Notes under the pieces: model-generated | Seen by the model: the letters and a program-made list of their open reading frames with translations, nothing else | The model's database searches: none | Told to the model about the DNA's origin: nothing | Translations under genes and position numbers: made by a program | Origin: Sphingobacteriia bacterium | GTDB taxonomy: Bacteria > Bacteroidota > Bacteroidia > Chitinophagales > Chitinophagaceae | Assembly (NCBI GenBank): GCA_004294135.1 | Contig: RDZY01000009.1 | Span: 62,001-126,000, forward strand | Direction of reading: 5' to 3' | DNA length: 64,000 bases | Shown here: piece by piece, positions 8,119 through 12,403 of the stretch | How positions within the stretch are numbered: position 1 is the first letter of the stretch | How the letters are laid out: the number at the start of each line of letters is the position of its first letter

Positions 8119-8147
8119 AAAAAAAACCCTCTCGAATTTCAAGAGGG
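8119..8147 (-). terminator. intrinsic terminator of the dcw cluster
   Basis: On the minus strand the arms CCCTCT and AGAGGG enclose a short AT-rich loop and are followed directly by eight T residues. It lies 27 bp after the ftsZ stop codon and before the TIGR01777 gene, as expected for a Rho-independent terminator closing the mraZ-to-ftsZ transcript. Confidence 0.85.
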
Positions 8148-8173
8148 CTGTAAAACACTATATACTGAACGGG

Positions 8174-10051
8174 TTAGTCGGGCTTTTTACCATCCAAAAA
8201 ACTATTGATGGATGATATTTGAGTTTGGTTATTATCGTCTTTTCCTACGGTATATTTACTATAAAAATTTTCTACCGAAGTGAGTGTATTCCCAAACAAT
8301 TCCATATTCCTTCTTACATAAGCGGGAACGGCATCAAATTCTCCATTTACATCAGAGGTATTGCTGATATTAAAAGAAAGATTGCGCAATTTTTGAATTC
8401 TTTCTGCTGCTCTTTTTTTCTGTAGTTCTACATCATCAATAAACGAATCATCTTCCATTGCAGCAGGTGTATTAGCTGCAGTAATTGCAGCAATAGGCAT
8501 TTCTGTTTTCTCTACCAACTGCATATTAAAAATAGATTCTTCTTCTACAGCTATTGGCGGAGCAGGCATTTTTATTTCAGCTACAGTCACCACCGCTTTT
8601 TCTACTACTGGCATTGCTGCTTGTGTAGTTGCAGCATAAATATTAGCGGGCTTGCTCATTAAACCACTCGACTGCACTATAGTTGGTGCATCGTTTAATT
8701 GAAAATTCAAGTGCGCTTCTACCTCAAGAATAGCAGGTATTTCGGGCATCACTTCTTCCTTAATTGGAAGGGCCATTTCTGGGGTTAAATTAAGTTGTAA
8801 CACCATAGATTCCTTCTCTTCTTCAACCTCAAAAGCTGGTGCTGGTTTTTCAGCAAATACATGTACTGCTGGCATTTCAACATGAATCGCTTGCATGGTT
8901 GGAGCCAGCTCATCTATAATAGCAGCGGGCATTTCAGCTATAATTGGTGCTGGTGCTGCCACAGGTTCAACTATTGGTTTTAGTGTTGGGGTAGGAATTT
9001 TTTCTGTTTCCATACCCAAGGTCATCACTATTTTTTCTGGCTGTACTTCTGGTGCTTTTTGAACCACTGGTTTTGCAAATGGATCTTTCTGTTCAAAGCC
9101 TGTTGCTATTAAAGTAATGCCTATTTTTTTGTCGAGTGAAGCATCATAACCCATTCCCACAATTACGTCTGAGTTTTCACCCGCCTGCAAACGAAGGTAG
9201 TTATTGATGGTTTCCAACTCATCCATCGTACACTCATAATCTCCTTCTGCACTGTTAATATTAATTAGAATCCACTTAGCCCCTTTAATATCATTATCAT
9301 TCAGTAATGGTGATGCCAATGCTTCTTCAATTGCATGTTGTGCCCTATTTTCTCCTTCCACTTCTGCCTTACCTAGAATTGCTACACCCCCATTCTTCAT
9401 TACAGTGCATACATCGGCAAAATCTACAATAATATGTCCCCTAGAGTTAATTACATCGGTAATACATTTTGCAGCAGTAGCCAAAACATTATCGGCTTTA
9501 CAAAATGCTTCTTTCATTTTAAGGTTACCATATTGCATCCGCAATTTATCGTTGCTGATGATTAATAAAGTATCAACCAACGGCTTCAGTGCTTCAATAC
9601 CTTCTTCTGCTTGCTGGTGTCTACGGGGTCCTTCAAAACCAAAAGGAGTGGTTACAATGCCCACCGTAAGAATACCCAAATCTTTACAAATTTTGGCAAT
9701 AATTGGTGCCCCACCAGTTCCAGTTCCACCACCCATACCGACAGTAATAAACGCCATTTTGGTATTCACTTCCAAAATACGTTTGATTTCTTCTAATGAT
9801 TCTTCGGTGGCCATTTTTCCTATTTCAGGATTGGCACCTGCACCAAGCCCTTGGGTAAGATGTGGACCGAGTTGTATTTTATTGGGAATATTACTTTGCT
9901 CTATTGCTTTGGCATCGGTATTACAAATGATAAAGTCAACACCTTCAATATCTTGGGCAAACATAAAGTTTACTGCGTTGCTTCCACCACCACCAACACC
10001 CAACACTTTAATAATAGATGATTTCTGTTTGGGAAGATCAAAATGAATCAT
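8174..10051 (-). CDS. ftsZ: cell division tubulin homologue FtsZ
   Basis: FtsZ is the GTP-dependent polymer that forms the cytokinetic ring. The core (residues ~12-322) has 'VLGVGGGGSNAV', the tubulin signature 'GGGTGTGG' (~107-114) and the T7 loop 'VDFAD' with D210 and D213. The Asn that usually precedes (NVDFAD) is Ile208 here, confirmed in the DNA. The protein is 625 residues because of a linker of about 215 residues (325-540), rich in Pro/Ala/Glu, that repeats a short '[FLM]xxQL' motif three times (near 413-422, 445-454, 504-514). A 'VPAYVRRN' peptide (575-582) resembles the FtsA/membrane-tether binding peptide, but about 43 more residues follow it. It is the last gene of the dcw cluster, 73 bp after ftsA. 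Confidence 0.98.
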   Translation of the reverse strand: MIHFDLPKQKSSIIKVLGVGGGGSNAVNFMFAQDIEGVDFIICNTDAKAIEQSNIPNKIQLGPHLTQGLGAGANPEIGKMATEESLEEIKRILEVNTKMAFITVGMGGGTGTGGAPIIAKICKDLGILTVGIVTTPFGFEGPRRHQQAEEGIEALKPLVDTLLIISNDKLRMQYGNLKMKEAFCKADNVLATAAKCITDVINSRGHIIVDFADVCTVMKNGGVAILGKAEVEGENRAQHAIEEALASPLLNDNDIKGAKWILININSAEGDYECTMDELETINNYLRLQAGENSDVIVGMGYDASLDKKIGITLIATGFEQKDPFAKPVVQKAPEVQPEKIVMTLGMETEKIPTPTLKPIVEPVAAPAPIIAEMPAAIIDELAPTMQAIHVEMPAVHVFAEKPAPAFEVEEEKESMVLQLNLTPEMALPIKEEVMPEIPAILEVEAHLNFQLNDAPTIVQSSGLMSKPANIYAATTQAAMPVVEKAVVTVAEIKMPAPPIAVEEESIFNMQLVEKTEMPIAAITAANTPAAMEDDSFIDDVELQKKRAAERIQKLRNLSFNISNTSDVNGEFDAVPAYVRRNMELFGNTLTSVENFYSKYTVGKDDNNQTQISSINSFLDGKKPD

Positions 10052-10124: not shown

Positions 10125-11498
10125 TCAACGAATTACTTGGTCTTCTTCTTCTTTAAATAAATCAATTAAGTTGTTCTTGAATTTATCCCAGAAACGTTCT
10201 TTTCTAACCGTTATATCTACTGAAGTTGGCACTGGAGCAATTACTACTTCTTCCACTTCTACCAGTTTTTTCGTCAACCCTTCTGGCACGGCCACTTTAA
10301 CAAATTTCTCTTCAAAGTCTTTGTATTTATGGTCGTAATCGTTGTAACCTTTCAGTATTAAACCAATACAAGTTGCGTACATAGGTTTCTTCAACTCATC
10401 AATATGATTGGCTGCAAGGTGTTCATTAGGGAGACCAATACGTGCATTTAATCCTGTGGTATATTCTGTAAGTTGAATTAAATGTTTCAATTGAGAACCA
10501 CCACCTGTTAAAATAATACCTCCATTCAAAGCACGATGATCTAATCCCACTTGCTTTAAATGATAGGTCACAAAATCTAATATTTCACCCATCCTAGCTT
10601 GAATAATAGAAGCCAGATTTTTTACACTTATTTCTTTTGCTGGCATCCCTTTTAATCCCGGTATGGTAATATAGGCGTTGGCTTTTGCCTCATCTGCCAA
10701 TGCACTACCAAACTGCACTTTCATGGCTTCGGCTTGACTTTTTAATACCCCCAATCCGAGGCGGATATCATTGGTAATATTTTCTCCACCGAATGGAATT
10801 ACAGCCGTATGCTTTAAAATACCATCATAAAAAACAGCCAAATCACTGGTACCACCACCAATATCCAAAATGGCTACTCCTGCTTCCATATCAATTTCAC
10901 TCATCACCGCGCTGGCAGATGCCAAGGGTTGTAATACCAAGTCTTTCGTAATCAGTCCACTTCTATCCACTGCCCTATTGATATTGCGAATGGCATTTCT
11001 ATCACCCGTAATAATATGAAAATTTGCACCCACTTTCACACCGTTATAACCAATAGGATCTTTAATATTTTGAATACTGTCCACATGAAAATCCTGTGAA
11101 ATCACATCAATAATTTGGTCTCCTGCGGGAATAAATGTCTTTCGTTGGTTATTAACCAGTTGCTCAATTTCTGCACGAGTAATTTCCAAATCAGCGTCTT
11201 GACGAACAATATCACCCCGAGTTTGAAGGCTCTTAATATGGTGACCAGCTATTCCAACATATACTTCTTTAATTTCTAAATCAGGATTGCTTTGCGCACA
11301 GTTCTCTAATGCAGCTTGAATGGCTTTGATGGTTTGATCAATATTTAGTACTTGACCATGCTGAACACCATTGCTATTAGCGCGACCAAAACCGAGTATT
11401 TCCAACTTTCCATACTCATTTTTTCGACCCGCAATAGCAGCTATTTTAGTGGTTCCGATATCCAGACCAACAATGATCGGCGATTCATTGTGATTCAT
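10125..11498 (-). CDS. ftsA: cell division protein FtsA
   Basis: This 457-residue actin-fold protein tethers FtsZ to the membrane and recruits division proteins. The N-terminal phosphate-binding loop reads 'VGLDIGTTKIAAIAG', the second phosphate motif 'ILDIGGGTSDLAVF' and the adenosine motif 'GGIILTGGGSQLKHL'; the SHS2/1C region lies between the first two. The C-terminus ends in a basic/hydrophobic segment ('FWDKFKNNLIDLFKEE') that could be the amphipathic membrane-targeting helix. It overlaps ftsQ by four bases (ATGA), which suggests translational coupling, and ftsZ follows. Confidence 0.97.
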   Translation of the reverse strand: MNHNESPIIVGLDIGTTKIAAIAGRKNEYGKLEILGFGRANSNGVQHGQVLNIDQTIKAIQAALENCAQSNPDLEIKEVYVGIAGHHIKSLQTRGDIVRQDADLEITRAEIEQLVNNQRKTFIPAGDQIIDVISQDFHVDSIQNIKDPIGYNGVKVGANFHIITGDRNAIRNINRAVDRSGLITKDLVLQPLASASAVMSEIDMEAGVAILDIGGGTSDLAVFYDGILKHTAVIPFGGENITNDIRLGLGVLKSQAEAMKVQFGSALADEAKANAYITIPGLKGMPAKEISVKNLASIIQARMGEILDFVTYHLKQVGLDHRALNGGIILTGGGSQLKHLIQLTEYTTGLNARIGLPNEHLAANHIDELKKPMYATCIGLILKGYNDYDHKYKDFEEKFVKVAVPEGLTKKLVEVEEVVIAPVPTSVDITVRKERFWDKFKNNLIDLFKEEEDQVIR

Positions 11499-12403
11499 AA
11501 GGTATTTCTTTTACTTGTTAACGGAATTGGATTCTGTTTATTGTTTAAAGGCAGTAAGATTTTTGGTATCGTGTCTAGCTTGGTCGTATCTATTATTTGC
11601 ATCAACTTTATGGCAGCGGCTGAGTCGGCATACATTTGTGCCGTCCCTTTTTTAATACCTATCACTTGATTCTTGTATTGTATGTCTAGCTTTTCATAGG
11701 TATATATGCCTCGCTCTAGCCAGGCTGAACGATAAAATGCATTTAACTTTTTAAATTTCGCACGAATATCACTCGCATCTCCAAAGTACACTATATGATC
11801 TCCAATTAATGGAACTATTTCAAAATGATTTTCTGCACTGATATTGATTTGCGATATCTGCGCAGTAAAAAAAGAGTCAGCGTTTATATAAGCTGCCATT
11901 TCAATTATTTGTTTTAACAGCAGGCTGTCTTTTTGTTTCTGAATGGGTAAATTGGTAAATACTGGCACGCGCGCGCTGAGCTTGGTACTCAATGGAAGAA
12001 ATGATAGTGCTGTATCAATATAAAATGATGCGCCATTTACCTGAAATAATCTTGCAACGGGCTCTCTCTCTTCAATACTTACCTGAAGTACTTGAAGGTT
12101 ATCAAAAAACATTTCTGCATTTTTTACCCAGACATTTTGCTTCATCATGGACTCCATTTTACGCAGTTTGAGCCGCTGTACTGGTTGCCCAATAATATTT
12201 CCACCCATATTCAACATGGCCAATACATCGGTCTCATCAATAAACATATGTTTTTCGGCACCCACAATGGCTATATTAACACCTGCACATTTTTTATTAT
12301 TTTTCTGGTGCATGGCAGCACCCGTCAACACCATTGTTCCAATAACAATGAGTAGCCACAAAGTGGTTACCAATATTTTTTTCCATGGAAGCTTTTGTGC
12401 CAT
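11495..12403 (-). CDS. ftsQ: cell division protein FtsQ
   Basis: This 302-residue bitopic protein has a short cytoplasmic N-terminus, one membrane helix (~10-28, 'ILVTTLWLLIVIGTMVLTG') and a periplasmic POTRA-like plus beta domain ('VWVKNAEMFFDNLQVLQVSIEEREPVARLF' region). It is diverged from proteobacterial FtsQ, as is normal in Bacteroidota, and is assigned by topology, the FtsQ/DivIB-type 'EREPVA' signature and position between murC and ftsA. It starts one base after the murC stop and overlaps ftsA by four bases. Its role is scaffold for FtsL/FtsB-type partners in the divisome. Confidence 0.9.
   Translation of the reverse strand: MAQKLPWKKILVTTLWLLIVIGTMVLTGAAMHQKNNKKCAGVNIAIVGAEKHMFIDETDVLAMLNMGGNIIGQPVQRLKLRKMESMMKQNVWVKNAEMFFDNLQVLQVSIEEREPVARLFQVNGASFYIDTALSFLPLSTKLSARVPVFTNLPIQKQKDSLLLKQIIEMAAYINADSFFTAQISQINISAENHFEIVPLIGDHIVYFGDASDIRAKFKKLNAFYRSAWLERGIYTYEKLDIQYKNQVIGIKKGTAQMYADSAAAIKLMQIIDTTKLDTIPKILLPLNNKQNPIPLTSKRNTL

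Follow-up and report, generated by a model that had tools for sequence, protein, structure and literature searches.

The FtsZ protein encoded in the window (the whole 64,000-nucleotide stretch of DNA analyzed here) carries Lys48 and Ile208 in place of the two residues whose side chains hold a potassium ion between neighboring subunits of ordinary FtsZ filaments. On the sequences compared, these two residues are exchanged always as a pair within the family, the other catalytic residues are retained, and the history of the pair includes at least three coupled switches, namely two gains and one reversion in the genus g20. The best explanation, to which we assign a probability of about 0.5, is that the interfacial K+ site has been rewired, with the ammonium group of Lys48 standing in for the ion.

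The ftsZ gene occupies positions 8174 to 10051 of the window on the minus strand, starts with ATG, and codes for 625 amino acids. Both the tubulin/FtsZ GTPase domain (PF00091, 153 bits) and the FtsZ_C domain (PF12327, 64 bits) scored above their curated cutoffs, and the tubulin signature GGGTGTG (residues 107 to 113) was invariant among the sequences compared. The gene lies directly downstream of ftsA in the order murC-ftsQ-ftsA-ftsZ, and a genome search revealed a single copy and no other FtsZ. The fold, which was supported by a structure model of the monomer without ion, the domain order, and the place of the gene beside ftsA within the dcw cluster are those of the canonical FtsZ of Staphylococcus aureus and Escherichia coli (PMC8936486). 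The closest named relatives by FtsZ were metagenome genomes of Chitinophagales and Sediminibacterium (L031, 91% identical; L053, 72%), and from these names the source genome appears to be a member of the Chitinophagaceae near Sediminibacterium. In the ftsQ position, the window contains a 302-amino-acid open reading frame (11495 to 12403, minus strand) that had no Pfam match at an E value of ≤0.001 and probably encodes FtsQ in a highly diverged form. Immediately beyond the ftsZ stop codon (8120 to 8150), the minus strand has a GC-rich inverted repeat and then a run of T, which resembles an intrinsic terminator for the dcw cluster. Genomes of family f83, from another class of the phylum (G437, G450, G456, G466, G423, and G443), had two or three FtsZ-like genes each, and the extra genes were 29 to 40% identical to the window's FtsZ.

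The earlier note had reported that the asparagine of the T7 loop is replaced by Ile208, and our alignment bore this out. The loop reads GHIIVDFAD, and Ile208 (ATT, 9428 to 9430, minus strand) corresponds to N207 of E. coli and N208 of S. aureus. That note had offered no reading of this change and had missed its partner, and the T7 change together with its partner is the important part. Lys48 (AAA, 9908 to 9910, minus strand) corresponds to Q47 of E. coli and Q48 of S. aureus; it lies in helix H2, on the nucleotide-binding face, and its partner is residue 208 of the next subunit, the role of Q48 being known from S. aureus (PMC8936486). His206 (E. coli position 205; 9434 to 9436, minus strand) is convergent in both clades that carry this lysine. 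The T7 segment D210-F-A-D213 (9413 to 9424, minus strand), with the catalytic residues D209 and D212 of E. coli numbering, was kept in all sequences. Both catalytic T7 aspartates are present in the window's protein, and the near-universal, non-defining asparagine is absent. Since 93 family sequences with an otherwise complete GTPase domain carry Ile or Val at position 207 (E. coli numbering), the absence of this asparagine does not exclude membership in FtsZ. The 625-residue protein is almost certainly functional: since the genome has no second ftsZ and the remaining catalytic residues are intact, this natural FtsZ must work with the exchanged pair. A catalytically dead FtsZ beside a second, active copy was ruled out on the same grounds.

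The roles of the exchanged residues are documented in filament structures of S. aureus FtsZ (PMC8936486). There, the N208 side chain in the T7 loop hydrogen bonds with Q48 and D46 of the next subunit and coordinates K+, which lies 3.1 Å from Q48; the site is completed by the backbones of L200, V203, and L209 and by one water molecule. Given these roles, the exchanged residues are both of the K+ side-chain ligands, one on each side of the interface, and the N208 and Q48 ligands of an S. aureus-type Mg/K type II GTPase are lacking here (I208 and K48). In S. aureus, Na+ instead of K+ lowered GTPase activity 10-fold, N208L abolished assembly, and Q48A lowered GTPase activity about 6-fold and stabilized straight filaments (PMC8936486). 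The E. coli Q47K mutant fails to support division unless suppressor mutations are present elsewhere (PMC5405962) and has been employed as a presumed monomeric mutant, again with no support of division (PMC13423816). Q47K is the same substitution as in the family. However, the laboratory mutant has N207 and needs suppressors, whereas the natural family proteins have Ile or Val at 207.

We surveyed positions 47 and 207 across the Bacteroidota; for other phyla, we relied on reports that describe N207 and Q47 as conserved across species (PMC8456036, PMC8936486). Among 142 family sequences, some of them redundant, the combination at 47/207 was K/I in 84, K/V in 9, and Q/N in 49, and no other combination was seen. 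When the GTPase domains of 229 FtsZ proteins were compared, each sequence with I207 had K47 in place of Q47. Outside the family (n = 100), Q47 was present in 99 sequences and N207 in all 100, and the five solved FtsZ proteins that we aligned have Gln and Asn at the two positions. A literature search that covered only a minority of subscription papers found no natural variants of N207 or Q47. Half-switched states were sought by degenerate-DNA scans of 399 family genomes that were at least 90% complete, and the matches were judged by an exact 504-nucleotide spacing that was present in every family FtsZ measured. These 399 genomes contained no K...N and no Q...I FtsZ; all 13 matches to the former pattern and all 3 to the latter lacked the 504-nucleotide spacing and are chance matches. 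K...I matches were found in 86 of the 399 genomes, about 78 of them FtsZ by spacing and sequence, and this number of genomes rules out a sequencing error behind Ile208. In the window's own genus, the K...I form of FtsZ was present in 14 of 14 genomes.

The window's FtsZ keeps N43, D45, G71, R142, D209, and D212 of the canonical proteins. Of these residues, R142 was found in all family members, and the other five were invariant across every sequence compared. Histidine at position 205 was present in 89 of the 93 K-type sequences versus 2 of the 49 Q-type sequences. Scanning the whole domain, we found that the two K clades had changed alike only at positions 47, 205, and 207, which belong to the T7/H2 contact region, and weakly at 141, which adjoins the conserved R142. 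Residue 203 was basic in part of the K types only and hence falls outside any strict rule. One FtsZ from another Bacteroidia family (L202) combines K47, H205, and N207; it was the only such protein found and is a possible half-way state.

To reconstruct the history of the switch, we masked columns 47 and 207, built an FtsZ-domain tree, and compared it with trees of RpoB and of FtsA plus MurC. All three agree in showing the window's clade as K/I apart from the genus g20, a Q/N group that branches within it. This genus is sister to G068, yet it carries Q47 and N207 again, plus Q205 and N203, and its genomes are uniformly Q/N (6/6). The second K clade consists of the genera g34, g84, and g90 (Lys with Val or Ile) and stands beside ordinary Q/N genera. 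A single origin of the K type was rejected by the AU test, in which the two K clades were held together (p-AU, 3.9e-36); holding the first K clade together without g20 gave a p value of 0.012. The tree requires at least three changes, each of them a double change. In simulations of independent change at two sites, identical patterns with at least three changes arose in about 3 of 100,000 pairs. G100 was considered as a second reversion, given its K/I-type tail with Q/N residues, but it was placed outside the clade and the idea was rejected. G076 (K/I) was left unplaced because its contig ends inside ftsA. Its FtsZ (L295) has an open frame without the PAYxRR peptide and FLDGKKPD ending of the other family members, possibly through a frameshift or a real loss.

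The repeated, paired exchange in nature shows that positions 47 and 207 act as a unit across the filament interface. Laboratory single changes at N207 or Q47 inactivate or cripple FtsZ. In ordinary FtsZ, Asn207 of one subunit touches Gln47 of its neighbor, and together they hold a K+ ion beside the GTP. According to our model, this ion has given way to a built-in cation. The lysine ammonium, reaching one bond farther than glutamine, would occupy the place of K+ and hydrogen bond with the same T7 backbone carbonyls that held the ion. With a fixed charge in the site, the asparagine ligand would become dispensable and could change to Ile or Val. The predicted result is an FtsZ without need for a monovalent cation; that the ammonium lies there and that K+ is no longer required is what we infer. 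The harm done by Q47K alone in E. coli would then arise because two positive charges compete for one site. Slightly less probable than the rewiring itself is the full claim of a natural potassium-independent FtsZ, in which a lysine from the neighboring subunit permanently replaces the K+ cofactor, twice gained and once undone in one family.

A parallel exists among the P-loop NTPases, for which the substitution of Lys or Arg for an activating K+ has been proposed and is well documented; a lysine finger in RecA, for example, takes the place of the K+ in RadA (PMC6310460). In both cases, an interface-activating K+ was apparently exchanged for lysine in evolution. The P-loop ATPases are, however, unrelated to tubulin and FtsZ, and that report mentions neither of the two. 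Against replacement of the ion stands L202, in which Lys47 occurs with Asn207, so that their coexistence has been possible at least once. Moreover, part of the coordination of K+ comes from the backbone, and a K/I FtsZ could still bind the ion. Species with the K/I pair are natural double mutants for asking how K+ contributes to the assembly of FtsZ and its hydrolysis of GTP. They are also natural tests of the inhibitor pocket, since FtsZ inhibitors target a region overlapping the 47/207 site (PMC8456036).

We weighed three other accounts of the pair. A compensated repacking of the interface would have the aliphatic part of Lys47 pack on Ile or Val207 while the T7 backbone carbonyls still hold K+; function would be unchanged, and the two changes would be coupled only because either one alone breaks the contact. 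Such plain epistasis also predicts the observed coupling, and the interchangeability of Ile and Val at 207 fits it. It does not, however, specifically predict a positive charge, and each of the two origins paired the aliphatic residue with lysine and never with another residue, so that we consider repacking rather unlikely. Lys47 might instead act as a catalytic lysine finger or contact Mg or phosphate (through D45, the Mg shell, or the γ-phosphate) and thereby alter the rate of hydrolysis. Residue 47 is indeed near N43 and D45 of the T2 loop, which hold the Mg shell, but the side chain of residue 48 in S. aureus points to K+ and N208, and K+ itself touches the substrate only indirectly (PMC8936486). 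R142, the likely arginine-finger analogue, is moreover kept in all family members, and a catalytic role of the lysine is improbable. The pair could finally define a slow GTPase, with lower hydrolysis and straighter, longer-lived filaments that suit these cells. The roughly 6-fold loss of activity and the straight filaments of S. aureus Q48A are in line with this; nevertheless, Q48A retains N208, and N208L alone fails to assemble (PMC8936486), indicating that simple loss of function is insufficient and making this account more improbable still.

Beyond the pair and His at 205, the window's FtsZ differs from the canonical proteins in its linker of about 215 residues and in an internal C-terminal peptide, after which comes a conserved tail some 40 residues long. 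The linker (residues 320 to 535; 8447 to 9094, minus strand) is predicted to be disordered, with a pLDDT of <50 over nearly all of residues 340 to 536. The earlier note had described three hydrophobic strings ending in QL in a linker of this length, and all three were found: ESMVLQLN (residues 414 to 421; 8789 to 8812), AHLNFQLN (446 to 453; 8693 to 8716), and SIFNMQLV (506 to 513; 8513 to 8536), each on the minus strand. The pattern ΦxΦQL, chosen post hoc, occurred 3 times against 0.06 expected, and none of 2,000 shuffles reached 3. We aligned 57 nonredundant linkers of the K/I clade. They are hypervariable save for short conserved motifs: EKIVMTLG, PFEEKDPFAPxL, FELSTEI, qf-vtEKP, FLSKPsNIYAE, and FQLVxKEE. 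At the three QL positions, the relatives have FELSTEI, qf-vtEKP, and FQLVxKEE, respectively; ΦxΦQL appeared only 16 times in the 57 linkers, spread over 13 sequences, and none of the other linkers inspected had three. Because the three positions differ in consensus and ΦxΦQL is rare in relatives, the triple was rejected as a conserved repeat. The note's suggestion of a single peptide, present three times and docking a divisome partner, is therefore highly improbable, despite the excess of ΦxΦQL over shuffles in the window's linker.

What stood of that suggestion is the conservation of each of the three positions, although neither the number nor the sequence of the strings is conserved. Several individual linker motifs were far above the shuffled expectation. 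The best conserved, GLMSKPANIYA in the window (8633 to 8665, minus strand; consensus FLSKPsNIYAE), was found in 28/57 and 35/49 sequences and in none of the shuffles. An F[ED]L-type motif was enriched in other Bacteroidia linkers (29 in 84 versus about 5 in shuffles). As these positions are individually conserved within a hypervariable linker, it is plausible that single motifs dock partners.

Neither the length of the linker nor the buried tail peptide sets this genome apart, as both are usual in the lineage. The structure model predicts a helix at residues 536 to 562 (the VELQKKRAAERIQKLRNLSF region; 8366 to 8446, minus strand) and another at 577 to 585, over AYVRRNMEL of the C-terminal-peptide-like VPAYVRRNMEL (8297 to 8329, minus strand). 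The internal position of PAYVRR (residues 576 to 581) and the long tail after it, here 44 residues, were as the note had described them. A position at the extreme C terminus is common for this peptide among FtsZ proteins but does not define them. The terminal tail (residues 586 to 625; 8177 to 8296, minus strand) ends in ISSINSFLDGKKPD and is conserved in the family. The buried peptide is no oddity of one genome; it is found class-wide in Bacteroidia, with internal PAYxR in 124/124 family sequences and, beyond the family, in 37/43 from the same order and 39/41 from other orders of the class (76/84 together); 25 to 49 residues come after it. In family f4 of the order, three FtsZ sequences (L135, L136, and L137) had no recognizable PAYxR. 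Most tails end in F-L-x-x-x-x-D, as INTFLDGKKPD in the family and, widely elsewhere in the class, as NNSFLHDNVD. Q/N-type Bacteroidia FtsZ proteins thus resemble the window's protein in the internal PAYxR, the roughly 43 residues after it, the terminal FLxxxxD, and, in some, a long linker; they differ in Q47/N207 and, outside the family, in having NNSFLHDNVD and not INTFLDGKKPD. A literature search, again covering only a minority of subscription papers, found nothing on the FtsZ tails of Bacteroidota. In the other classes of the phylum (n = 16), a canonical terminal PxFLR..D was present in 12 FtsZ sequences, 11 of which had an internal PAYxR as well, at similar spacing. The ancestor of the phylum may have had tandem C-terminal peptides, the terminal copy having diverged in Bacteroidia, where SFLHDNVD may be what became of the second copy. 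In L210 to L224, from these other classes, the internal PAYxRR is followed 34 to 59 residues on by a terminal PAFLRK(I/M)MD, an arrangement seen in 11 of the 16 sequences.
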